In this document: positions 8,110 through 28,834 of the stretch, one piece after another
How positions within the stretch are numbered: position 1 is the first letter of the stretch
Layout: every line of letters begins with the position of its first letter
NCBI GenBank assembly: GCA_903913915.1
Contig: CAIWNE010000128.1
Coordinates: 1-39,112 of the forward strand
Origin: an uncultured Opitutia bacterium
Lineage (GTDB): Bacteria; Verrucomicrobiota; Verrucomicrobiia; Opitutales; UBA953
Reading direction: 5' to 3'
DNA length: 39,112 nt
Position numbers and translations under genes: made by a program
Notes under the pieces: model-generated
Told to the model about the DNA's origin: nothing
Seen by the model: only the letters and a program-made list of their open reading frames with translations
The model's database searches: none

Positions 8110-10005
8110 CTACTCCGTGAACGGGACGTATTCGGGGACCAGTTCGCGGATGCCCTGCTTGCAGGCCTGACCTTCGAGCGGAAGCAATGCGCGGACCCGG
8201 GCCAGGAACGCCTCGGGCGTGTCGGGCGATGCCTGTTCGGCGACGAACCGGAAGACCCGCGGGTGCTCGGTCGGACGATACTGCTCTCCTTCGTGCTGGA
8301 GCTCCTCGACCAGCTTTTCTCCGGGACGGAGGCCGACGATCCGGATCTCGATGTCGATGTCGGGACGGAGGCCGCTGAGTTCGATGAGCTGGCGGGCGAC
8401 ATCGATGATCTTCAGAGGCTGACCCATCTCGAGGACGAGGATGTCGCCGCCGCTGCCGAGCGTCGCGCTCTGGAGGACGAGGCCGACGGCCTCGGGGATG
8501 GTCATGAAGTACCGCCTCACGTCAGGATGCGTGACCGTGACGGGCCCGCCGGCGGCGATCTGCCGGCGGAAGATCGGGATGACGGAACCGGAAGAGCCGA
8601 GCACGTTGCCGAAACGTACCGCCAGGAAGGCGGTGCGACCGCCGGAATTCGCCTGCATGGAACGCACGACGAGTTCGGCGAGCCGCTTGCTGGCGCCCAT
8701 GACGTTCGTGGGATTGACCGCCTTGTCGGAGGAGATGAGAACGAATTTCTCGGCGCCCATTTCCGCGGCGAGACGGGCCACGACGGCCGTGCCGAGCACG
8801 TTGTTCTTCAGGGCCTCGGAAGGCTGGGACTCCATCATCGGCACGTGCTTGTGCGCCGCGGCGTGCAGCACGAGGCTGGGCCGGAAACGCGCGAAGACGT
8901 CGCGCATGCGGTCGGGGTCGGCGACGTCGGCGACGATCGGCGTGATGAGCGCGCCGGCTCCGGCGGCGATGAGCTCCTGCTCGGCCTGGTAGAGAAGCAC
9001 TTCGCACTGGTCTAGGATGATCAGGCGGGCGGGCGAACGCGCGGCGACCTGGCGGCTGATCTCGGACCCGATGCTGCCGCCGGCTCCCGTCACCAACACC
9101 GTGCGGCCTTTCACCATCGCGTCGATGGCTGCGTCGTCGAGCTTGGCGGGCTCGCGGCCGAGGATGTCCTCGACGGAGATCGGACGGATGTCGCTCGCGC
9201 GGACGCGACCGCCGGCCAGTTCGGCCATGGAAGGCACCACCAAGACGCGCAAGTTGCTGGCCGAGGCGAGGGTGCTCACCTCGCGGATGCGGCGGACGGC
9301 CGCGGCGGGCAAGGCGAGGATGATCTCGGTGACGCCGTATTTCTCGGCGAGCTCGGGCATCCGCTCCGGCGCGCCGATCACCGGCACGCCGTGGATGTGC
9401 AGCCCGTGCTTGGCCGCGTCGTCATCGAGGAAGCAGACCGGCTCGATCCCGTGACCACGACGACTGAGGAGGTCGGAGGCGAGCTGGGCGCCGGCCTGCC
9501 CGGCTCCGACGATCGCGATGCGCTCGACGACCCCTTGGGTCGCCTGCGCCTTGCTCCAGAAACGCTCGCGTAGCGCGCGGATCGAGACGCGGAAGCCCAT
9601 GAAGAGCACGAGCGAAAGGTTGAAGTCGACAAGCAGGACGCCGTTGGGCGGGTCGAAGGGATCGGCGGGGTTGCCGGTGCCGACGACCGCGGCGAGCACC
9701 AAAGCCAACATGGTGGCGGTGCCGAGGGCCATCCCCATGCGGAACGCGTCAGGCAGCCGGAAATAATAGAAGACGCCGCGGAACTGGCCCCAGGCGCCGA
9801 GCAGCAGCACCTTGAGCGGGATCAGCCACAGGAGGACCAGCGGACGCTGGACATAAAGATAAGCCCCGGCGGAATGCTGCTGGGCGAGTCCTTCTTCGGC
9901 CGCGAAACGAAGCTCGTAGGCGCCCCAGAGCGAAAGGGCGGCAAGCACGCCATACGTCGCGAAGAAGAACGCGGCGCGTTGGAAGCGATTGACCGGGGCA
10001 GCCAT
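8110..10005 (-). CDS. Membrane nucleotide-sugar 4,6-dehydratase, CapD/WbpM type
   Basis: Large membrane-bound SDR enzyme, 631 residues, of the CapD/WbpM/PglF type that makes UDP-4-keto-6-deoxy sugars for capsule, O-antigen or glycoprotein. About four N-terminal membrane helices lie within residues 10-145. A first Rossmann domain begins at IAIVGAGQAG (163-172), and the catalytic dehydratase domain begins at TVLVTGAGGSIGSE (302-315). AAHKHVPMME and SSDKAVNPTNVMGASKR follow; in this family the usual SDR tyrosine is replaced by Met before the lysine, as seen here. A weak AAGG precedes the start. The sugar product cannot be told from sequence, and no glycosyltransferases lie nearby. Confidence 0.88.
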   Translation of the reverse strand: MAAPVNRFQRAAFFFATYGVLAALSLWGAYELRFAAEEGLAQQHSAGAYLYVQRPLVLLWLIPLKVLLLGAWGQFRGVFYYFRLPDAFRMGMALGTATMLALVLAAVVGTGNPADPFDPPNGVLLVDFNLSLVLFMGFRVSIRALRERFWSKAQATQGVVERIAIVGAGQAGAQLASDLLSRRGHGIEPVCFLDDDAAKHGLHIHGVPVIGAPERMPELAEKYGVTEIILALPAAAVRRIREVSTLASASNLRVLVVPSMAELAGGRVRASDIRPISVEDILGREPAKLDDAAIDAMVKGRTVLVTGAGGSIGSEISRQVAARSPARLIILDQCEVLLYQAEQELIAAGAGALITPIVADVADPDRMRDVFARFRPSLVLHAAAHKHVPMMESQPSEALKNNVLGTAVVARLAAEMGAEKFVLISSDKAVNPTNVMGASKRLAELVVRSMQANSGGRTAFLAVRFGNVLGSSGSVIPIFRRQIAAGGPVTVTHPDVRRYFMTIPEAVGLVLQSATLGSGGDILVLEMGQPLKIIDVARQLIELSGLRPDIDIEIRIVGLRPGEKLVEELQHEGEQYRPTEHPRVFRFVAEQASPDTPEAFLARVRALLPLEGQACKQGIRELVPEYVPFTE

Positions 10006-15421: not shown

Positions 15422-16549
15422 TCAGGAGATGCGCTGCGGCATCACGACGCAGAGGAAATCGTCCTTGAGGCCGCGGATGACGCCGGGAGACATCTCGTCC
15501 TTGAACTCGAAATCGATCTCGTCCTCGGTGAGGGCCTTCAGCGGGTCGATGATGTACTGAGGGTTGAAGGCGATGTTCACGTCCGGACCTTCGTACTTCA
15601 CGGCGATGGGTTCATGCGCGTCGCCGCTGTCGGACTTGGCGGAGATCTCGAGGTTCTGGGACTTCTTCGAGACGCTCATGCGGATCGTGTTGTTGCGGTC
15701 GTCGGTCATCAGCGCGGCGCGGTTGACGCTTTCGAGCAGTTTCTCGCGCTCGAGGCGGACCTTGGAGCCCGCGTCCTTCGGGATGACCTGGCGGTAGTTC
15801 GGGTAGTTGCCTTCCACGACCTTGGAGACGAGCTGGATGCGGTCCACGAGGCCTTCCTCGTTCTTCGGAATGTCGATCGTGAAGCCGACCTGGCGTTCGT
15901 TGTGCGACACGTGCGCTTCTCCGCCCGACTTCAGCAGACGCATCAGTTCGATGATGGTACGGGCAGGCAGGATGAGGGCCAGGGTCTTGTCGGTGCCGGC
16001 GATCTTGCGTTCGCACTTGGCCAGGCGACGGCCGTCCGTGGCCACGACGGTGAGCTTGCCTTCGGCGAATTCGAAGAAGACGCCGTTCAGGATGTAACGG
16101 TTCTCGTCGGAAGACTGCGCGTAGCTTACCTTGCGGAGCATGTCGCCGAGGTCGTCTTGGTTGATCGAGATCGTCGGCTGACCTGCGAAATTCGAGATGG
16201 GCGGAAACTGATCGGCGGGGAGTCCGGCGATCTGGAAGACCGAGCTTCCCGAAGTGATCTTCACGCGGTCCTTGCCGGTGAGTTCGACGATCGTATCGCT
16301 GCTCGAAAGGGCGCGGATGATGGGGACGAGCTTCTTGACGGGCAGGGTGATGCGACCCGGCGATGAGACGGAGGCCTTGATGCGGCAGCAGATGCCGAGA
16401 TCGAGGTTGGTCGTGGTCAGGGTGACGGTATCGCCTTCGGCCTCGATCAGCACGTTCTGGAGGATCGGCATCGTCGCGCGGTTACCCACGACGTTGGTCA
16501 CGCTCGAGAGGCCGTTGAAAAAGTGATTCCGGTTAACCTTGAACTTCAT
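15422..16549 (-). CDS. dnaN: DNA polymerase III beta sliding clamp
   Basis: Ring-shaped processivity clamp of the replicative polymerase. The start at MKFKVNRNHFF gives 375 residues and matches the normal N-terminus; an in-frame upstream start at 16603 adds only unrelated residues. Three repeats of the clamp fold are recognisable: MPILQNVLIEAE in the first, ENRYILNGVFFEF with ATDGRRLAKCE in the second, and the C-terminal CVVMPQRIS matching the family's V-M-P-M-R-L ending. It is not next to dnaA here; the upstream neighbour is pssA. The 249-base gap upstream holds possible origin elements as well as the promoter. Confidence 0.96.
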   Translation of the reverse strand: MKFKVNRNHFFNGLSSVTNVVGNRATMPILQNVLIEAEGDTVTLTTTNLDLGICCRIKASVSSPGRITLPVKKLVPIIRALSSSDTIVELTGKDRVKITSGSSVFQIAGLPADQFPPISNFAGQPTISINQDDLGDMLRKVSYAQSSDENRYILNGVFFEFAEGKLTVVATDGRRLAKCERKIAGTDKTLALILPARTIIELMRLLKSGGEAHVSHNERQVGFTIDIPKNEEGLVDRIQLVSKVVEGNYPNYRQVIPKDAGSKVRLEREKLLESVNRAALMTDDRNNTIRMSVSKKSQNLEISAKSDSGDAHEPIAVKYEGPDVNIAFNPQYIIDPLKALTEDEIDFEFKDEMSPGVIRGLKDDFLCVVMPQRIS

Positions 16550-16614
16550 GATGACCGAAGAATTGAGGACAGGCAGGGGGTGAGGCAACCCCTCATTGCC
16601 CACATACCGGGTCT

Positions 16615-20985: not shown

Positions 20986-22364
<1,379 letters not shown>

Positions 22365-22368
<4 letters not shown>

Positions 22369-23213
22369 GGCTGTTCGTCCTGCTGCTCGCCCCGGCCTTG
22401 GTTTCCGCCGCCGACTTCGTCGGCAGCGATCTTCTCTCCGGACCGATCTCCGCGGGCCTTCAGAAAGCCGCCCCCGATGTCGCCGCCGATTTCGGCGGCA
22501 CGCTTCCCGGACGACGAGCCTTCGTCGAAGGCCGTGCGTCCGCCGCGATCCTGATGATGCGCGACCGCGAGGTCGCGCCGGTCGCTCCCGGCAAGGGCGC
22601 TGTCGCGGAGTTCAAGATCGCCAGCGCGGTCGTGGTGGTCGCCACGCATCCCACCAATCGCGCCGAATCCATCTCGCTCGAGAACCTCGCCAACGCCTTC
22701 GCGCGCGACGCGCGTGCGCCGGCCCGCAATTGGAACGACATCGACCCCGCGGCCCGCTCGGAACTCATGACGCCGGCGGTGTCTTCGCCTCCGGGCACCA
22801 TGGTCCTCGAGATTTTCCAGGGCATCGCCCTCGAGGGACAGGGCTTCCGGGCCGACGTCCGTCAGCGCGTCGAACCTGCGCTCGCCGCCGACTTGCTCGC
22901 TTCCCGGGCGGGGAGCATCATCCTCATCCCGCGCCCCCCGTCCGGACGCGGGAAGGTCCTGCAGGTCGCCGACGGTCGCCCCGGGAAATCTTCCACCGCC
23001 TATGGGCCGGACGAGAACAACGTCCATAACGGCGACTACCCGCTCCAGCTTCCCCTGATCCTTTATGTCCGGCAGGAGCGGATTCCCCAGCTCCGGTCCG
23101 CCCTCGCCTGGCTCTTTTCCGATGAAGCAGCGGCCCTGCTTGAAAAGCAGGGCCTATACCCTGCCCCGAAGGCCGTCCGGACGAGGTTTGTCCAAAGGCT
23201 TGACACTCGCTAG
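22365..23213 (+). CDS. PstS-like periplasmic substrate-binding protein
   Basis: A 282-residue exported protein of the phosphate-binding (PstS-like) type. The GTG start at 22365, overlapping the regulator's stop as GTGA, gives a compact signal peptide MRLFVLLLAPALVSA before ADFVGSDLL. FVGSDLLSGPI, SAAILMMRD and the late block YPLQLPLILYVR match the layout of PstS family proteins, as does the final helix of the LAWLFSDEAAALLEKQGLYP type. It has no lipobox and no ABC permease or ATPase beside it. It may sense a ligand rather than feed a transporter, possibly upstream of the coupled sigma-54 activator; this last point is speculation. Ligand unproven. Confidence 0.72.
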
Positions 23214-23239
23214 GGCGTTTGGTCTGCTCCTCGTCCAAC

Positions 23240-23314
23240 GCGCGCGTAGCTCAATGGTAGAGTACCACCTTGCCAAGGTGGCTGTTGCTGGTTCAAGTCC
23301 AGTCGCGCGCTCCA
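23240..23314 (+). tRNA. tRNA-Gly (anticodon GCC)
   Basis: The cloverleaf can be folded by eye. Acceptor arms GCGCGCG (23240-23246) and CGCGCGC (23304-23310) pair fully, followed by discriminator T and an encoded CCA (23312-23314). The D arm is TAGCTCAATGGTAGAG. The anticodon arm is CCACC-TTGCCAA-GGTGG with anticodon GCC, reading glycine codons GGC and GGU. The T arm contains GGTTCAAGTCC. The length is 75 bases with CCA. A strong terminator follows 15 bases later. Confidence 0.97.
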
Positions 23315-23330
23315 CTTTAAAATGGAGCAA

Positions 23331-23357
23331 AAACCCGCCGAAACACGGCGGGTTTTT
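23331..23357. terminator. Rho-independent terminator, probably bidirectional
   Basis: AAACCCGCCG (23331-23340) and CGGCGGGTTT (23346-23355) form a perfect 10-bp stem with loop AAACA. A T-run follows on the plus strand (GGGTTTTT), and the A-run before the stem gives one on the minus strand too. It ends the tRNA and operon transcript on the plus strand and the phoB-phoR transcript on the minus strand. Confidence 0.9.
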
Positions 23358-23368
23358 CATTTCGGGAC

Positions 23369-24610
23369 CTAGGCCGACGCCGGCAAGGTCACCATGATCC
23401 GAAGGCCCTTCGGGCGTACTGGTTCCGCCGCGGCGGAACCCCCATGCAGCTCGGCGACCTGGCGGACGATGCTCAGACCTAGGCCGCTCCCCCCTGCCCT
23501 GCGGGATTTATCCGTCCGGTAGAAACGATCGAACAGCCTGGGCAGGTCGGCCGGGGTCACCCCCGCTCCGTCGTCTTCCACGCTGAGTTCCACCCCGCTG
23601 AGGGTATCGCGGGTCGAGATCAGCAGCCGGCTCATCCCGGCGGCATGAGCCAAGGCGTTGTCGATGAGGTTCTGGACCAGACGGCGGGCCTGCACCGGGT
23701 CGGCGGCGCCGCCATCGGCGGCTTCCAACCGCAGTTCGAGCTTCACGCCGGCCGCCTTGCAGCGGGCGGCGAATTCTTCGGCGACTTCGCGGGCGGCGAC
23801 ATGCAGCGCGCCGGGTTCCCGGCGGACGTCTTGGGCGGACTCCAGGCTGGCGAGCGCGAGCAACCCTTCGACCAGTCCTTGGAGCCGGCCGACGGAGCTG
23901 ACGATCTTCTGCGTGAAGCGCGCGCGGTCTTCGGGCGACATCGTCGCCTGGTCTTCGGCCAGCGTCTCCGCATAGCCCCGGAGGATCGTCACCGGCGTGC
24001 GAAGGTCGTGCGAGACGTTCGTCACGAAATCCCGTTCCATGGCTTGAAGGCGCTTCAGCGCCGTCACATCCGCCAGCACGAAGATCGCCGCGCCGTCGCC
24101 GAACGCCTCCGGATCCGTGCGCGCGCCCGCGGCCTGGATCCATACGTCGGAAAGCGGCGCGCGGTTGAGCAGGATCGTCGAACGGGCGCCGCCTTCGGCG
24201 CGGACGCGCCGGACCAGTTCGATGAAGTCGGCGCTCCGCACGAGCGGCACGATCGAACCGCCGCCGTCGCCCTCCGAAAGTCCGAAGAGCGCCGCCGCCG
24301 CCGGGTTGGCGAGGCGGAGCCGGTCCTGCGCGTCGACGACGAGCACCGCGTCGGTCAGCGGCGCGAGCAGCGCTTCGATGCGCCGCGCCGCCGCGGCGCG
24401 GATCTCGCCTTCGTTCGCGGCGCGTCGTTCGATGGCGACGAAGAGTTCTTCGAGCCGGAGCTTGCGCACCAGCCAGCCTTGCGGCCGCGGCGCCCCGCCG
24501 TCGGCGAGCAGCGCCCGTCGCGCCCAGCGCACATGGCCGGCGATCTCGGCGAAGCACCAGGCGGCGGCGACGACGAGCGCGAGCAGGAGCAACCAAGGGA
24601 GCCAGGACAT
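23369..24610 (-). CDS. phoR: PhoR-type sensor histidine kinase
   Basis: Membrane histidine kinase of 413 residues, placed after a PhoB-type regulator. One N-terminal membrane helix lies at about 5-22 with almost no periplasmic part, as in PhoR, then a PAS domain at about 75-185 (LTDAVLVVDAQDRLRLANPAA). The H box is FVTNVSHDLRTP with phosphoacceptor His201, the N box NLIDNALAHA with Asn318 and the G boxes VEDDGAG and GSGLGLSIV (345-382). It is expected to control PhoB in response to phosphate through the Pst system, which is not in the window. It starts 49 bases after phoB. PhoR rather than another kinase is supported by topology and partner. Confidence 0.85.
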   Translation of the reverse strand: MSWLPWLLLLALVVAAAWCFAEIAGHVRWARRALLADGGAPRPQGWLVRKLRLEELFVAIERRAANEGEIRAAAARRIEALLAPLTDAVLVVDAQDRLRLANPAAAALFGLSEGDGGGSIVPLVRSADFIELVRRVRAEGGARSTILLNRAPLSDVWIQAAGARTDPEAFGDGAAIFVLADVTALKRLQAMERDFVTNVSHDLRTPVTILRGYAETLAEDQATMSPEDRARFTQKIVSSVGRLQGLVEGLLALASLESAQDVRREPGALHVAAREVAEEFAARCKAAGVKLELRLEAADGGAADPVQARRLVQNLIDNALAHAAGMSRLLISTRDTLSGVELSVEDDGAGVTPADLPRLFDRFYRTDKSRRAGGSGLGLSIVRQVAELHGGSAAAEPVRPKGLRIMVTLPASA

Positions 24611-24659
24611 CTGCGGAGGATGCTGTCCGGGCGGACCGGACCTGCGAGCGCAAAGCGGT

Positions 24660-25367
24660 TCAGCCGTTCACGCGATAGCCCACGCCGCGCACGGTGTCGA
24701 TCACGTCGCCGGCCGGGCCGAGCTTCTCGCGCAGCCGGCGCACGTGCGTGTCCACCGTGCGGGTCTCGAGGTCGGGCGAATAGTTCCAGACATCGGCCAG
24801 CAGTTCTTCGCGCGACTGCACCCTGCCCTTCCGTTCGAGCAGCAGACGCAGCAGCTTGAATTCGGTGGCGGTGAGTTCGACCGTCTTGCCCGAGGCGATC
24901 ACTTCGTGCCGTTCGATGTCGAGCATGAGCGCGCCGGCGGCGAGGCGTGTCGAAGGCTTGGCCGCCGCGGACTTCGCGCGGCGGAGAAGCGCCTGCGCGC
25001 GCAGCATCAGTTCGCGCGTGTCGAAAGGCTTCGTCACGTAATCGTCGGCGCCCGACTCGAGCCCTTTCACCTTGTCGACCGTCTCCCCTTTCGCCGTGAG
25101 GAAGATCACCGGCGTATCCTGGAGGAGCGCGTCGGCGCGGACCATGCGTAGCAGCTGGACGCCCGTGAGTTCCGGCATCATCACGTCGAGGATGATCAGG
25201 TCGGGCCGGAAGTCGCGGGCCAGGCCGATGGCGCGGAGCGGATCGTTGAGAGTCCGGATGGCGTAGCCGGCCTGCTTGAATTTGTAGTCCAGCAGCTCGG
25301 TCACGTCGGACTCATCGTCGACGATCAGGATGCGCTTAAGGTGTTCGGCGTCCATGGGTGCGCCCAT
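24660..25367 (-). CDS. phoB: PhoB-type OmpR-family response regulator
   Basis: Two-domain DNA-binding regulator. Counting from the internal Met at 25355, the receiver domain (to about 122) has Asp13/Asp14 in LIVDDE, phosphoacceptor Asp57 in ILDVMMP, and Lys109 in VTKPFD. The C-terminal winged helix shows LTATEFKLLRLLLER and the recognition region TVDTHVRRLREKL, ending in VRGVGYRVNG. Starts at 25367 (MGAPM) and 25355 (MDAEH) are both possible; no ribosome site decides. The gene and phoR form an operon. A TGACA/TGTCA inverted repeat lies 37 bases upstream. Confidence 0.87.
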   Translation of the reverse strand: MGAPMDAEHLKRILIVDDESDVTELLDYKFKQAGYAIRTLNDPLRAIGLARDFRPDLIILDVMMPELTGVQLLRMVRADALLQDTPVIFLTAKGETVDKVKGLESGADDYVTKPFDTRELMLRAQALLRRAKSAAAKPSTRLAAGALMLDIERHEVIASGKTVELTATEFKLLRLLLERKGRVQSREELLADVWNYSPDLETRTVDTHVRRLREKLGPAGDVIDTVRGVGYRVNG

Positions 25368-25404
25368 ACATAAAGGCTACGCCTTCCTGACCGCCAGAGT
25401 TAGG

Positions 25405-25418
25405 TGACAATCGTGTCA
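25405..25418. promoter_or_regulatory. TGACA-N4-TGTCA inverted repeat upstream of phoB
   Basis: TGACA (25405-25409) and TGTCA (25414-25418) form a short inverted repeat 37 bases before the phoB start at 25367. TGTCA is the core of E. coli Pho boxes, but those are direct repeats 11 bases apart, so this is not a canonical Pho box. It could be an autoregulatory site. An AT-rich stretch with no gene follows to about 25500. Confidence 0.25.
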
Positions 25419-25526
25419 GGTGGGTTACGGCGGATTTTTATGAACATAAGATGCTAATAATCAACATTTTATGAAACAAAGAAACACGACCGTCACATCG
25501 CGCGGCCGTAATCTTTACATAAGGCA

Positions 25527-25542
25527 TGTTCCACGTGGAACA
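25527..25542. other. parS site (ParB-binding palindrome)
   Basis: The perfect 16-bp palindrome TGTTCCACGTGGAACA fits the universal chromosomal parS consensus TGTTNCACGTGNAACA at every defined position. It lies 30 bases beyond the mnmG stop in the noncoding gap before phoB. parS sites seed ParB loading for chromosome segregation and cluster near the replication origin. Confidence 0.9.
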
Positions 25543-25571
25543 CTCCCCCACCCTGCCCCGGGGTTTAAGCT

Positions 25572-27452
25572 CTATTTGGCCCGGAACAGGACCATCAGCA
25601 GCGAGATGTCGGCGGGATTGACCCCGCTTATGCGGCTGGCTTGGCCCAAGGTCTTAGGCTGGATCGCCTGGAGTTTTTGCCTAGCTTCGATGCGCAATCC
25701 GTAGGCTTTTAAGAAATCAAAGCCTTCAGGTACCTTGAAGGAGTCTAGGTCGTGCAGTTTGCGGGCGTTGCGAGTTTCCCGTTCAAGATACCCGCGGTAT
25801 TTGACCCGATACATGACTTCAGCCTGAATTTCGGGTGCTTCGGCCAGGAAAGTTGGCGGCAGGTCTTTAGGGGCTGAATCCCAGTTACGCCGGATCACAT
25901 CGCCGGCGATTCCGCCCGGAATGGCTAATTTTTCGAGATATTCGATCCAGTGGGCGACTTTTTCGGCCTTAGTCTGAATCCGGGCTAAGCGATCCGTCGG
26001 CACGAGCCCGAATTCGGCGATTTTATCCTTAAGTCGGAGTTCGGCGCTGCCATGGTTGAACAGAAGGCGGAATTCAGCCCGGCTCGTGAACATGCGGTAA
26101 GGCTCTTGGGTGCCTTTGGTCACCAAATCGTCGATCAAGACGCCGATATAGGCTTCATCACGACCAATGACCATGGGAGTCTGGCCTTTGACCTTACAGG
26201 CGGCATTGACCCCGGCGACCAGGCCTTGAGCTGCGGCTTCTTCATAGCCAGAGGTGCCATTGATCTGGCCGGCAAAGAACAGGTTTTCGACCTTTTTGGA
26301 CTCCAAGGTCGGATAGAGCTGGGTCGGGGGCGCAAAATCATACTCCACGGCATAGGCTGGGCGGAGCATGACGGCTTTTTCGAGTCCAGGGACCGAAGCC
26401 AACATCTGGAGCTGTACGGCGAAGGGCAGGGAGGTCGAAAGGCCGTTGATATACCATTCGTCGGTATTTCGGCCTTCAGGCTCTAGGTAGAGCTTGTGGG
26501 TATCCTTGTCCGAAAACTTCACGAACTTATCTTCGATGGAAGGGCAGTAGCGCGGGCCGACGCCGGTGATCTCTCCTCCATAAAGGGGGGAGAGGTGAAG
26601 ATTCTCCTGCACGATCTTGCCGGTAGCGCAGGTTGCTTCGGTCATCCAACAGGACACCTGGTCGCTGCCGGGAGTCCATCCAGGCAGTCGTTCGCCTGCT
26701 TGTTCCACGTGGAACAAATCGGTTTGCTGCCGGGTGTCGTGGAAGGCAAAAAGGGTAGGGGAGGTGTCGCCCGGCTGCTCCTCACATTTACTAAAGTCGA
26801 TGGATCGCCCGAGGATACGGGGAGGGGTGCCGGTCTTGAGTCTCTGGAGTTCGATTCCAGCCTCTAAGAAACTGCTAGACAAAGACTTAGCACTAAAATC
26901 ACCTAGGCGTCCACCCTCGGTTTTATTCGCCCCGATATGCATCAGGCCGCGCAGGAAAGTGCCCGTCGTGACGACCACGGTCTTGGCGTGGAAATCGAGA
27001 TCCAGATTGGTCTGAACGCCGACCACGATCCCCGACTTAAAGATCAGGCCCGTGACCTGGGCCTGGAAGATGGTCAGCCCCTCCTGTAGTTCGCAGAGGT
27101 GCTTCATCCGGAACTGGTAGGCCTTCTTGTCGCACTGAGCACGGGGGGCCTGGACGGCGGGACCCTTCGAGGAGTTGAGGAGGCGGAACTGGATGCCGGT
27201 CACGTCGGCGGTCAGGCCCATCTCGCCCCCGAGGGAGTCGATCTCCCGGACGATATGCCCCTTGGCCTGGCCCCCGATGGCGGGGTTGCAGCTCATCTGG
27301 GCGATGGTGTCCAAGTTGCCGGTCAGGAGCAGGACATCGACCCCCATGCGGGCGGCGGCCAAGGCGGCTTCAACGCCGGCATGGCCGGCCCCGCAGACGA
27401 TGACGTCATAGGGGCGGTCAGGCCCGAGGCGGATTTGTTTGTGAGGTCGCAT
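25572..27452 (-). CDS. mnmG: tRNA uridine-5-carboxymethylaminomethyl modification enzyme MnmG
   Basis: FAD enzyme (GidA) that, with MnmE, modifies U34 of tRNAs reading two-codon sets. The FAD loop is [11 protein letters not shown] at about 20-30, followed by [19 protein letters not shown] and [13 protein letters not shown]. At 626 residues it is normal. Start 27452 is preferred: GAGGGAG lies just upstream as a ribosome site, while a GTG at 27479 overlaps mnmE. Compared with E. coli GidA, there is an apparent insert of roughly 20 residues between AFHD and VSCWMTEA, and it includes LFHVEQ (246-251) encoded by a parS palindrome. Base composition falls in the C-terminal two thirds. It is read after mnmE from the same strand. 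Confidence 0.96.
26700..26717. other. parS site inside mnmG
   Basis: TTGTTCCACGTGGAACAA is an 18-bp perfect palindrome containing the 16-bp parS sequence at 26701-26716, identical to the copy at 25527-25542. It lies within the mnmG coding sequence and encodes residues 246-251 (LFHVEQ). Two identical copies 1.17 kb apart make chance very unlikely. Confidence 0.9.
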
Positions 27453-27475
27453 AGGCGCTCCCTCACCGGAGGGAA

Positions 27476-28834
27476 TCACTTACCTATGCAGAAGGAAGCA
27501 AAGAGCTTGTCCAGCATACGCTCATTATCGATGCGTCCGACGACCTCCCCCAGGGCGTCCAAGGCGACCCGGCCTTGGGCGGCCGCGAGTTCGGTCTGGA
27601 TGGGCGCCTTGAGGTGGCCGGCGGCTTCCGTCAGGGCGGTCGCCGCCCGGGCCAAAGCTTCCGCGTGACGGACGCTGACCACGAGGTCTTCCGCGCCGGG
27701 GGCGATCTCTTTCGCCACGAGGAACTCGCCCAGCTTCGCGCGGAGCGTTTCGGCGTCGCGGCCGTCGAGGAGGCAGGCCGACAGCTTTCCGAGCCGAGGC
27801 AGGAAATCTTCCTGCGCAGGGTGGGCCGGCAGGTCGGACTTGTTCGCCACGACCAGCGTGCGAGCCGGATCGAGCAGCGCGACGAGATCGGCGGGCAGGG
27901 CAGGGGGCTCCGCCGAGGCGTCGACGACGAGGATTAGGAGATGCGCGCCGCGCGCTTGTTCGAGCGAGCGCGCCATGCCGAGGTTCTCCAGCGTCGAGCC
28001 GCCGTCGCGCAATCCGGCGGTGTCGATCGCGGTGACGGCGAGCGGCAGGCCGGCGACGGGCGCCTCGAGGTAGTCGCGCGTCGTGCCCGCCTCGGGGCTG
28101 ACGATCGCGCGGTCGGCGCCGGTGAGCGCGTTGAGCAGGCTCGACTTGCCGGCGTTGGGAGCGCCGACCACGGCGACGCGCAGGCCGGCGCGCAGGGCGC
28201 CGTCATGCTTCGCCGTCCGGGCGTATGCGGAAAGTTCTGACGCGATTTCGACCAAGCGGGACGCAGGTCCGCGCGGGTCCTCCGGAGGCAGGTCTTCCTC
28301 GGGAAAGTCGATGTGGGCCTCGAGTTCGGCGAGGATCTGCAGCGTATGGTCCGTCCAGCCCGCGACATGCCGGCCGAGTTCGCCGGCGAGCATGCGCCGC
28401 GCGGAGGCGAGCGCGCGTTCGGAGCTGGCGTGGATCAGGTCGGCCACGGCTTCGGCCTGCGTGAGGTCGATCCGTCCGGCGAGGTACGAGCGGCGCGTGA
28501 ACTCCCCGGGTTCGGCGAGACGTCCGCCGCGCGCGAGGCAGTCTTCGGTGATGCGCCGCACGAGCAGCGGGTTGCCGTGGCACGTGATCTCCAGCGAGTC
28601 GTTGCCGGTGAAGGAGCGGCCGGCGTGCCAGAGCACGGCGACGACCTGGTCGATGGCTTCGCCGTCTTGGTTGCGCCAGATGCCGAGCGTCGAGGTCTTT
28701 TCGGCGAGGGGCGTCTTCCGCGCGAGCGCGGCATGCGCGATGGCCGAGGCCAGCGGTCCGTCCACGCGCACGATCGCCAGGGCCGAGCGGCCCGCGGGTG
28801 TCGCGGCGGCGACGATGGTCTCGGAGGCGGACAT
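27476..28834 (-). CDS. mnmE: tRNA modification GTPase MnmE
   Basis: GTPase (TrmE) partner of MnmG in wobble-uridine modification. The 452-residue protein has the N-terminal formyl-THF-binding domain ([34 protein letters not shown]), a helical domain, and an inserted G domain with G1 GAPNAGKSS (224-232), TTRD (251-254), DTAG (271-274) and NKSD (331-334). It ends in FCIGK, whose cysteine is conserved in the family. mnmG begins 23 bases after its stop, so both partners are made from one mRNA. The pair is origin-proximal in many bacteria. Confidence 0.96.

Follow-up and report, generated by a model that had tools for sequence, protein, structure and literature searches.

Excerpts of the published work on chromosome segregation describe a ParB protein that nucleates on parS, spreads from it and recruits SMC, with ParA moving the complex (PMC7333895, PMC7022226), and give it as a rule that the par operon lies in the same ori domain as parS (PMC7022226). 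According to similar excerpts, classic chromosomal ParBs tend to be encoded together with GidA, MnmE, GidB and YidC (PMC10653881), and parS can lie inside a coding sequence, as does parS-359 of Bacillus subtilis within the parB gene (PMC4442127) and as do sites of Pseudomonas aeruginosa within recF (PMC3909081). A motif-based map of parS in 12 gut strains, among them Akkermansia muciniphila YL44, came with an origin that did not always coincide with dnaA (PMC10197239); mnmG goes unmentioned in the excerpted text of that study. Here we analyze a stretch of 39,112 nt from an uncultured Opitutia bacterium of the Verrucomicrobiota (contig CAIWNE010000128.1 of assembly GCA_903913915.1; hereafter the window), which carries two perfect parS palindromes, one inside mnmG (gidA) and one just beyond its end.

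The locus has much in common with chromosomal ParABS (Soj/Spo0J/parS): the same 16-bp parS palindrome, a three-domain ParB with the motif GERRFRA, a Soj-like ParA and, in relatives, an origin-near site. It differs in that no par operon was seen, with parA, parB and parS at three separate places. Like parS-359 of B. subtilis, one site sits in a protein-coding gene, but its host is mnmG, in a window that has no par gene, and not parB as there. The recF sites of P. aeruginosa are likewise origin-side parS inside a non-par gene; in that species, as far as the excerpts go, the parAB promoter lies in the upstream gidB and the par genes still stand beside gidB, whereas here they are elsewhere. From the mnmE-gidA-gidB-parA-parB neighborhood, again as excerpted, the locus retains mnmE-mnmG on the origin side, but the parA and parB of this genome are on other contigs and parB has different neighbors. 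Within the open-licence literature, neither parS in mnmG nor such a layout in Verrucomicrobiota turned up in our searches; the parS survey of Livny and others (2007) lies outside this scope. Intragenic parS is already known, and the novelty lies in a centromere that a gene unrelated to par has retained across the phylum, with the par genes dispersed. The layout breaks the rule of a common ori domain for par operon and parS, and thereby supplies natural cases in which to ask why parS is tied to the origin side and parA and parB are not.

Two probable parS palindromes and the par genes of the same genome

The 16-bp exact palindrome TGTTCCACGTGGAACA occurs at 25527-25542 (site 1), 29 nt beyond the mnmG stop codon, and at 26701-26716 (site 2), inside mnmG, where it is translated as L-F-H-V-E-Q, MnmG residues 255-260. 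Both copies match the parS consensus TGTTNCACGTGNAACA without mismatch, and they are 1174 bp apart, so that the pair of identical sites about 1.17 kb apart, flanking and lying within mnmG, is exactly as an earlier sequence-only reading of the window had placed it. A third copy is absent from the window even when two mismatches are allowed (chance expectation at that threshold, 0.01). That reading had set a genome-wide search for copies beforehand as a test. In the 2,531,450 bases of the assembly (G000; 148 contigs, the window being contig C128), the search returned two perfect sites, both at mnmG, where about 0.002 would be expected from the base composition of the window; no other site had 0-1 mismatch, and a single additional one had two (C133:17737). 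parS copy number is accordingly low and clustered, two within 1.2 kb of 2.53 Mb. In the 22 closest named loci (L035-L056; MnmG 75-97% identical), site 1 is perfect in 17 and has one mismatch in 5, a conserved island amid variable intergenic sequence.

The ParB homologue on which the sequence-only reading had staked its claim exists. The assembly has one ParB match, of 310 aa (C51:1549-2481, minus strand), in which the three chromosomal ParB domains PF02195 (ParB_N), HTH_ParB and ParB_C all score over the Pfam cut-off, as does TIGR00180 over its own. It carries GERRFRA at residue 109 and ENLQR at residue 143; GERRxRA is the CTP-binding motif of ParB. Its nearest PDB entries are 7bnk, a ParB family protein, and 1vz0, which is Spo0J; Noc ranks behind them. 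ParA likewise has a single match, a Soj-like protein of 258 aa on contig C116, which is closest to ParA 8ray (E 3e-59) and the segregation protein 1wcv/2bek, with MinD 1ion far behind (E 9e-18). parA, parB and parS are thus on three different contigs, and dnaA is on a fourth (C64), in line with the earlier statement that none of the three genes is in the window. The parB neighbors are a LysM gene and, by eye, purH and mnmA, not parA. In two relatives of the same order, G040 and G055, parB lies between LysM-like and secG-like genes (by eye), again without parA, and no canonical parAB operon near the origin was found in G000 or G040. The earlier phrase that the sites stand at mnmG "instead of a par operon" therefore holds for the window, which has no par gene, and was an understatement, parA and parB being apart from each other as well in the genomes inspected.

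Two side observations concern these proteins. A LysM gene beside parB is common to this genome, G040 and G055 (loci L116, L121 and L316; by eye in the latter two genomes), and family f27 (G062, G066, G078, G090, G094, G099, G103 and G108) has a second, longer ParB_N frame of 529-650 codons apart from the short parB.

With ParA, ParB and parS all present, an ordinary ParABS mechanism is the best explanation, and the two palindromes are in all likelihood the chromosomal centromere parS of this Opitutia bacterium, the intragenic copy lying in an insertion-tolerant loop of MnmG. Very probably, its own ParB would grip the site embedded in mnmG to segregate the chromosome. From comparison with the described systems we infer how segregation would proceed, from binding and spreading to SMC loading and movement. 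A dimer of the ParB encoded elsewhere in the genome would attach to parS with its HTH domain and, loaded as a clamp that depends on CTP, spread across mnmG and mnmE and recruit SMC; the Soj-type ParA, whose gene is elsewhere too, would move the complex such that the origin region segregates first.

The same palindrome could in principle be the operator of another DNA-binding protein, a regulator of mnmEG or of the neighboring two-component genes, or a Noc site. Site 1 does adjoin an AT-rich stretch upstream of a response-regulator gene, and the top NCBIfam match of the ParB found here is the Noc model, below its cut-off (246 vs 315 bits). We nevertheless regard this as highly unlikely: the palindrome fits the parS consensus without mismatch, and the intragenic site holds its place in many families. 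An origin-side position and multiplication inside a gene would also be unexpected of a regulator's operator. The Noc-binding palindrome has the consensus TATTTCCCGGGAAATA, which has no match in the window at up to three mismatches.

The separation of parA and parB from parS and from each other, together with the fact that the case for a centromere is built from sequence, raises the question of whether the sites are a relic, old parS copies that no longer serve chromosome segregation. This is very improbable, as relics decay (the f22/g29 genomes, G038, G042 and f31 are examples), whereas here the sites are letter-perfect while their intergenic flanks vary, and they are the only candidates with 0-1 mismatch in the genome.

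Codon constraint at the intragenic site

The host gene, mnmG (25572..27479, minus strand), encodes a tRNA uridine-5-carboxymethylaminomethyl modification enzyme of 635 aa (Pfam GIDA, E 9e-156, and SAM_GIDA_C; NCBIfam TIGR00136, 742 bits against a cut-off of 525). It follows mnmE (27476..28834, minus strand; Pfam MnmE_helical, TrmE_N and MMR_HSR1; TIGR00450 above cut-off) with a 4-base overlap, in a putative operon. The parS codons fall in an inserted loop of residues 247-273 (26661..26741, minus strand) that the solved MnmGs of E. coli, Chlorobium and Aquifex, the three used for comparison, do not have: from KTGTP to GPRYCP the protein of the window spans 91 residues, against 73 in E. coli and C. 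tepidum and 79 in Aquifex. An AlphaFold2 model gave residues 240-272 a predicted local distance difference test score (pLDDT) below 50 and mostly coil, from a shallow alignment and with a whole-protein mean of 69; as many parts of MnmG besides the loop also score low, the model merely fits a flexible loop and proves nothing.

We asked how the letters of the site vary in 80 named Opitutia mnmG loci, the best 80 of 589 relatives of the window's MnmG, a sample that leans to its loop; the closest named genomes are titled Verrucomicrobiota or Opitutae and are mostly metagenome assemblies. These loci overlap with the other locus sets used below (for example, G015:C2 and BGOI01000002.1 are of equal length), and the counts are not additive. 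All 80 have a site with at most two mismatches within mnmG (65 perfect, 13 with one mismatch and 2 with two). Codon use at the site is nearly uniform: TTC in 80/80, CAC in 75/80, GTG in 74/80 and GAA in 79/79 of the sequences with E, so that the leading codon takes shares of 1.00, 0.94, 0.93 and 1.00 at the four codons lying wholly within parS. Where F, H, V and E are conserved elsewhere in the alignment, the leading codon has a mean share of 0.56, 0.65, 0.47 and 0.60 (best column 0.65, 0.74, 0.58 and 0.76), and with M and W excluded a share of 0.95 was reached at 0 of 312 conserved columns outside the site. The residues on either side differ between loci (L/M/V/P before, Q/H/R/L after), and their parS letters are kept, TG in 79/80 and CA in 74/80. 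Relatedness cannot account for this contrast, since all codon columns share one tree; because the parS codons are frozen where other conserved codons are not, selection acts on the DNA. As judged from these sequence comparisons, selection on DNA letters maintains the intragenic site in many relatives across the phylum, such that a DNA centromere and a protein sequence share letters phylum-wide.

These codons bear directly on the possibility that the conserved item is a peptide, with LFHVEQ needed by the MnmG enzyme and the palindrome a mere by-product of its codons. The FHVE frame is indeed used by 167/169 sites of at most one mismatch in 159 mnmG reading frames, and F, H, V and E are invariant in a 31-sequence alignment. 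Yet a need for the peptide would not freeze synonymous positions as they are frozen at no other conserved codon, nor place the same DNA beyond the end of mnmG (site 1), in alternative frames within the loop, elsewhere in G038 and G057, and in tandem copies. The peptide is also changed or gone where the site has moved or ParB was not found, and LFHVEQ is absent from the three solved MnmGs. A peptide origin of the conservation is therefore already strongly disfavoured, and we give it hardly any credence.

Breadth and turnover in Verrucomicrobiota

The intragenic site is found throughout the genus of the window: all 30 mnmG loci examined (L144-L173) have it, 28 perfect and 2 with one mismatch. 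In a sample of 57 genomes of the order, a site with 0-1 mismatch is present in 52. Missing it are five: G002, G019 and G021, whose assemblies have no mnmG match, G004, with only short weak matches, and G042, in which mnmG is present and neither a ParB match nor any trace of the site was found. Among the 52, G051 and G053 have no mnmG match, and their 1-mismatch sites are not assignable to this gene. Outside the genus, 17 genomes of the order have a perfect site and mnmG on one contig; a site is in the gene in 16, and 18 of the 21 perfect sites in these genomes are inside mnmG.

For the wider comparison, genomes were drawn evenly from the class (n = 57, including G000 and 10 others of the order) and from the phylum outside the class (n = 46). 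In the class sample 37 genomes have a perfect site and 35 have one in mnmG; of the 46 perfect sites, 37 are in mnmG, 7 within 250 bp of it, 1 elsewhere (G057) and 1 in G058, where mnmG was not found. Outside the class a perfect site occurs in 15 genomes, of which 14 have it inside mnmG and G126 has its sites 125 and 672 bp upstream of the gene; the 29 perfect sites divide into 21 in mnmG, some of them between two matched gene segments, and 8 within 700 bp. The intragenic position is thus the rule in the order and class samples. On sequence comparison, parS embedded in mnmG is widespread and not universal, or is replaced elsewhere by a variant. Two loci titled Polynucleobacter meluiroseus and Proteobacteria bacterium (L039 and L093) have an Opitutia-like mnmG with in-frame parS, and these titles look wrong.

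In some loci the loop carries more than one site. The mnmG genes of Cerasicoccus frondis and C. maritimus (L057 and L088) each have two parS in frame. The KTGTP-GPRYCP stretch is 88-108 residues long with one site (median 91), 107-113 with two and 125 with three (14 of 159 sequences, in which the second motif was not found, were dropped), each extra in-frame copy adding about 17 residues. Extra in-frame copies are spaced by 48, 51 or 63 nt in Opitutia and by 33-48 nt in four loci of other classes. In G128, G132 and G156 neighboring copies are 49, 128 and 70 nt apart, which are not multiples of three, so that these copies would be read in different frames. The two exceptions to the FHVE frame are a site before the likely start of the G103 mnmG and a 1-mismatch site in the G130 loop, read VPRGT; a 2-mismatch copy in the G126 loop is read as STWN. 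Second copies of mnmG were seen on two occasions. In L100 a partial second mnmG (8323-8849; residues 243-418), which may be a partial duplication or an assembly artefact, directly follows the full gene and has its own perfect parS at 8360. In G020, contigs C12 and C22 each have an mnmG with an internal perfect parS and a 1-mismatch site 1173 nt on, which may reflect mixed strains or duplication.

Elsewhere the site has moved or decayed. In 6 of 8 sampled f22/g29 genomes, a perfect site stands near codon 548, and the DNA at the original position is degraded and encodes FRMEQ or FRMKQ; neither of the other two (G057 and G097) has a site in mnmG, and the one in G057 precedes a gene resembling argS (by eye). 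G038 has a single site with 0-1 mismatch, translated in frame as MFHVEQ in an open frame that is AddB/RecB-like by eye (at least 745 codons) and some 20 kb away from mnmG, whose own loop reads PLYVER and has no site. The recurrence of the FHVE frame even in these new sites (f22 and G038) may mean that it is the mildest reading of parS. In G068 and G074, which belong to one genus and have genomes of 0.9 Mb, there is no ParB match and the site has decayed (two mismatches in G068, more in G074); G042, which has likewise lost the site, is also of 0.9 Mb. The ParB absences in these three genomes rest on assemblies 93-99% complete. Genes with a decayed or relocated site retain a KTGTP-GPRYCP stretch of 90-91 residues. 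These cases fit a DNA site that would be retained only while ParB uses it.

Probable origin-side position, evidence on the other side, and neighboring features

The sequence-only reading had placed the sites near the replication origin, and in relatives GC skew points the same way, closely in two genomes and coarsely in two more. In G040 (one contig, 2.634 Mb) the skew turns from negative to positive at 2.290-2.295 Mb, with parS at 2.274 Mb and the dnaN orthologue at about 2.292-2.293 Mb, at the minimum. In G055 (3.753 Mb) the minimum is near 0.90 Mb, parS at 0.883 Mb and dnaN at about 0.905 Mb (904.7-905.9 kb). In G073 (4.320 Mb; noisy 3-kb samples) the last negative sample is at 4.29 Mb and values are positive from 0, with parS at 4.237 Mb; this minimum is not sharp, with positive samples at 3.90, 3.96 and 4.05 Mb. 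In G092 (3.055 Mb; 3-kb samples) the minimum lies between 1.05 and 1.20 Mb and parS at 1.109 Mb. By this measure parS is at or near the origin in all four relatives. In the window the origin-side marker is dnaN, the DNA polymerase III beta clamp gene (15422..16603, minus strand; three DNA_pol3_beta domains), 9-10 kb from the parS sites, a gene that the sequence-only reading left unmentioned. dnaA is offset from the skew minimum by about 1.0 Mb in G040 (C1:680279) and 0.25 Mb in G055 (C1:1154284), and is therefore a poor origin marker in these genomes. parS in mnmG may flag origin-side contigs in metagenomes of Verrucomicrobiota, for which dnaA may be no guide, as in G040, with dnaA at 0.68 Mb and the minimum at about 2.29 Mb.

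In G040, G055 and G073 parB lies far from this region. In G040 the skew turns from positive to negative at about 0.955-0.965 Mb, and parB (0.985 Mb) lies within about 20-30 kb of this maximum, with parA at 0.366 and dnaA at 0.680 Mb. In G055 the cumulative GC maximum falls between samples at 3.04 and 3.23 Mb and AT skew turns earlier, at 2.66-2.85 Mb; parB (2.527 Mb) is on the far side of the chromosome, yet about 0.5 Mb from the GC maximum, with parA at 2.391 and dnaA at 1.154 Mb. G073 has its maximum between 2.13 and 2.34 Mb and parB at 1.965 Mb. The distance from parS to parB amounts to 49%, 44% and 47% of the chromosome in G040, G055 and G073, which are complete or nearly complete genomes of the order. 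In four f27 genomes (G062, G078, G099, measured from mnmG, and G108) the two are 19-88 kb apart, and in four more, where genome lengths were rounded, some 0.1 Mb; the distance is about 11% of the chromosome in G084 and about 30% in three f22 genomes. In G092 parB (0.191 Mb) is about 30% of the chromosome away from parS. A remote parB thus characterizes the order rather than the class as a whole. We infer a history in which parS would already have been in mnmG when the par genes adjoined that gene near the origin, as they do in many bacteria; the par genes would later have scattered and parS remained, because a centromere must stay near the origin and parA and parB are free to leave.

Several observations weigh against a centromere reading of this kind. 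On the origin side, GC skew did not reproduce the placement of the sequence-only reading in the genus of the window itself, where raw skew around mnmG runs from positive to negative and alone would suggest a terminus; we rejected raw skew as an origin marker in this genus, as it is dominated by gene strand. GC at third codon positions (GC3), taken separately by strand, has no clear replication signal there either, and no cluster of DnaA boxes (TTWTNCACA) was found in the window or three sister mnmG contigs, including near mnmG and dnaN. As to breadth, a perfect site is absent from 20/57 class genomes and 31/46 phylum genomes outside the class. Among the 20, 11 mnmG genes were inspected; 7 have a 1-mismatch site in the loop and those of G068, G074, G080 and G097 have none. 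Among the 31, four were inspected; G134 and G130 have 1-mismatch sites, and G153 and G121 (f45) have none. No sampled member of f45, f50 or f55 in the out-of-class sample has a perfect site, and the two f45 loops inspected lack the site and are short (79 residues). There are also the G057 site outside mnmG and the G058 assembly in which mnmG was not found. Finally, ParB was not found in 8/57 genomes of the order, of which G005, G007, G011 and G045, fragmented assemblies 74-95% complete, nonetheless carry the mnmG site.

For the genus of the window a weaker signal agrees with the origin-side placement. AT skew at third codon positions (AT3), averaged over both gene strands, turns from positive to negative around dnaN in three syntenic contigs, as at the G040 origin, which lends weak support to an origin-side parS. 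The parB contigs of the genus have no clear AT3 switch, and we therefore do not claim parB at the terminus for this genus.

Putting breadth, turnover and position together, over much of Verrucomicrobiota we probably see a gene-embedded centromere in the frame of mnmG that forced a loop on its host protein (sometimes two or three parS long) and was left stranded there once parA and parB had dispersed (to the terminus, in one genome or more). The lineages that escaped would show turnover, with a new parS elsewhere (in the 3' part of mnmG, in a gene 20 kb off or before argS) and the old one a decaying scar. Such natural events of gain, duplication, relocation and decay could be used to order the steps of centromere turnover.

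Beside site 1 the window has further features. Its most AT-rich stretch (25361..25560; 41-47% GC in 120-bp windows vs 66.4% for the whole window) overlaps the site and lies between the start of a response-regulator gene and mnmG; it may be the promoter of the regulator or an origin element. The regulator is of the OmpR family (24660..25367, minus strand; Response_reg and Trans_reg_C). At 22047-25367 it and a PAS histidine kinase stand near a gene resembling a phosphate-binding protein (PBP_like_2), and these genes are possibly a PhoBR/PstS-like set beside the centromere.

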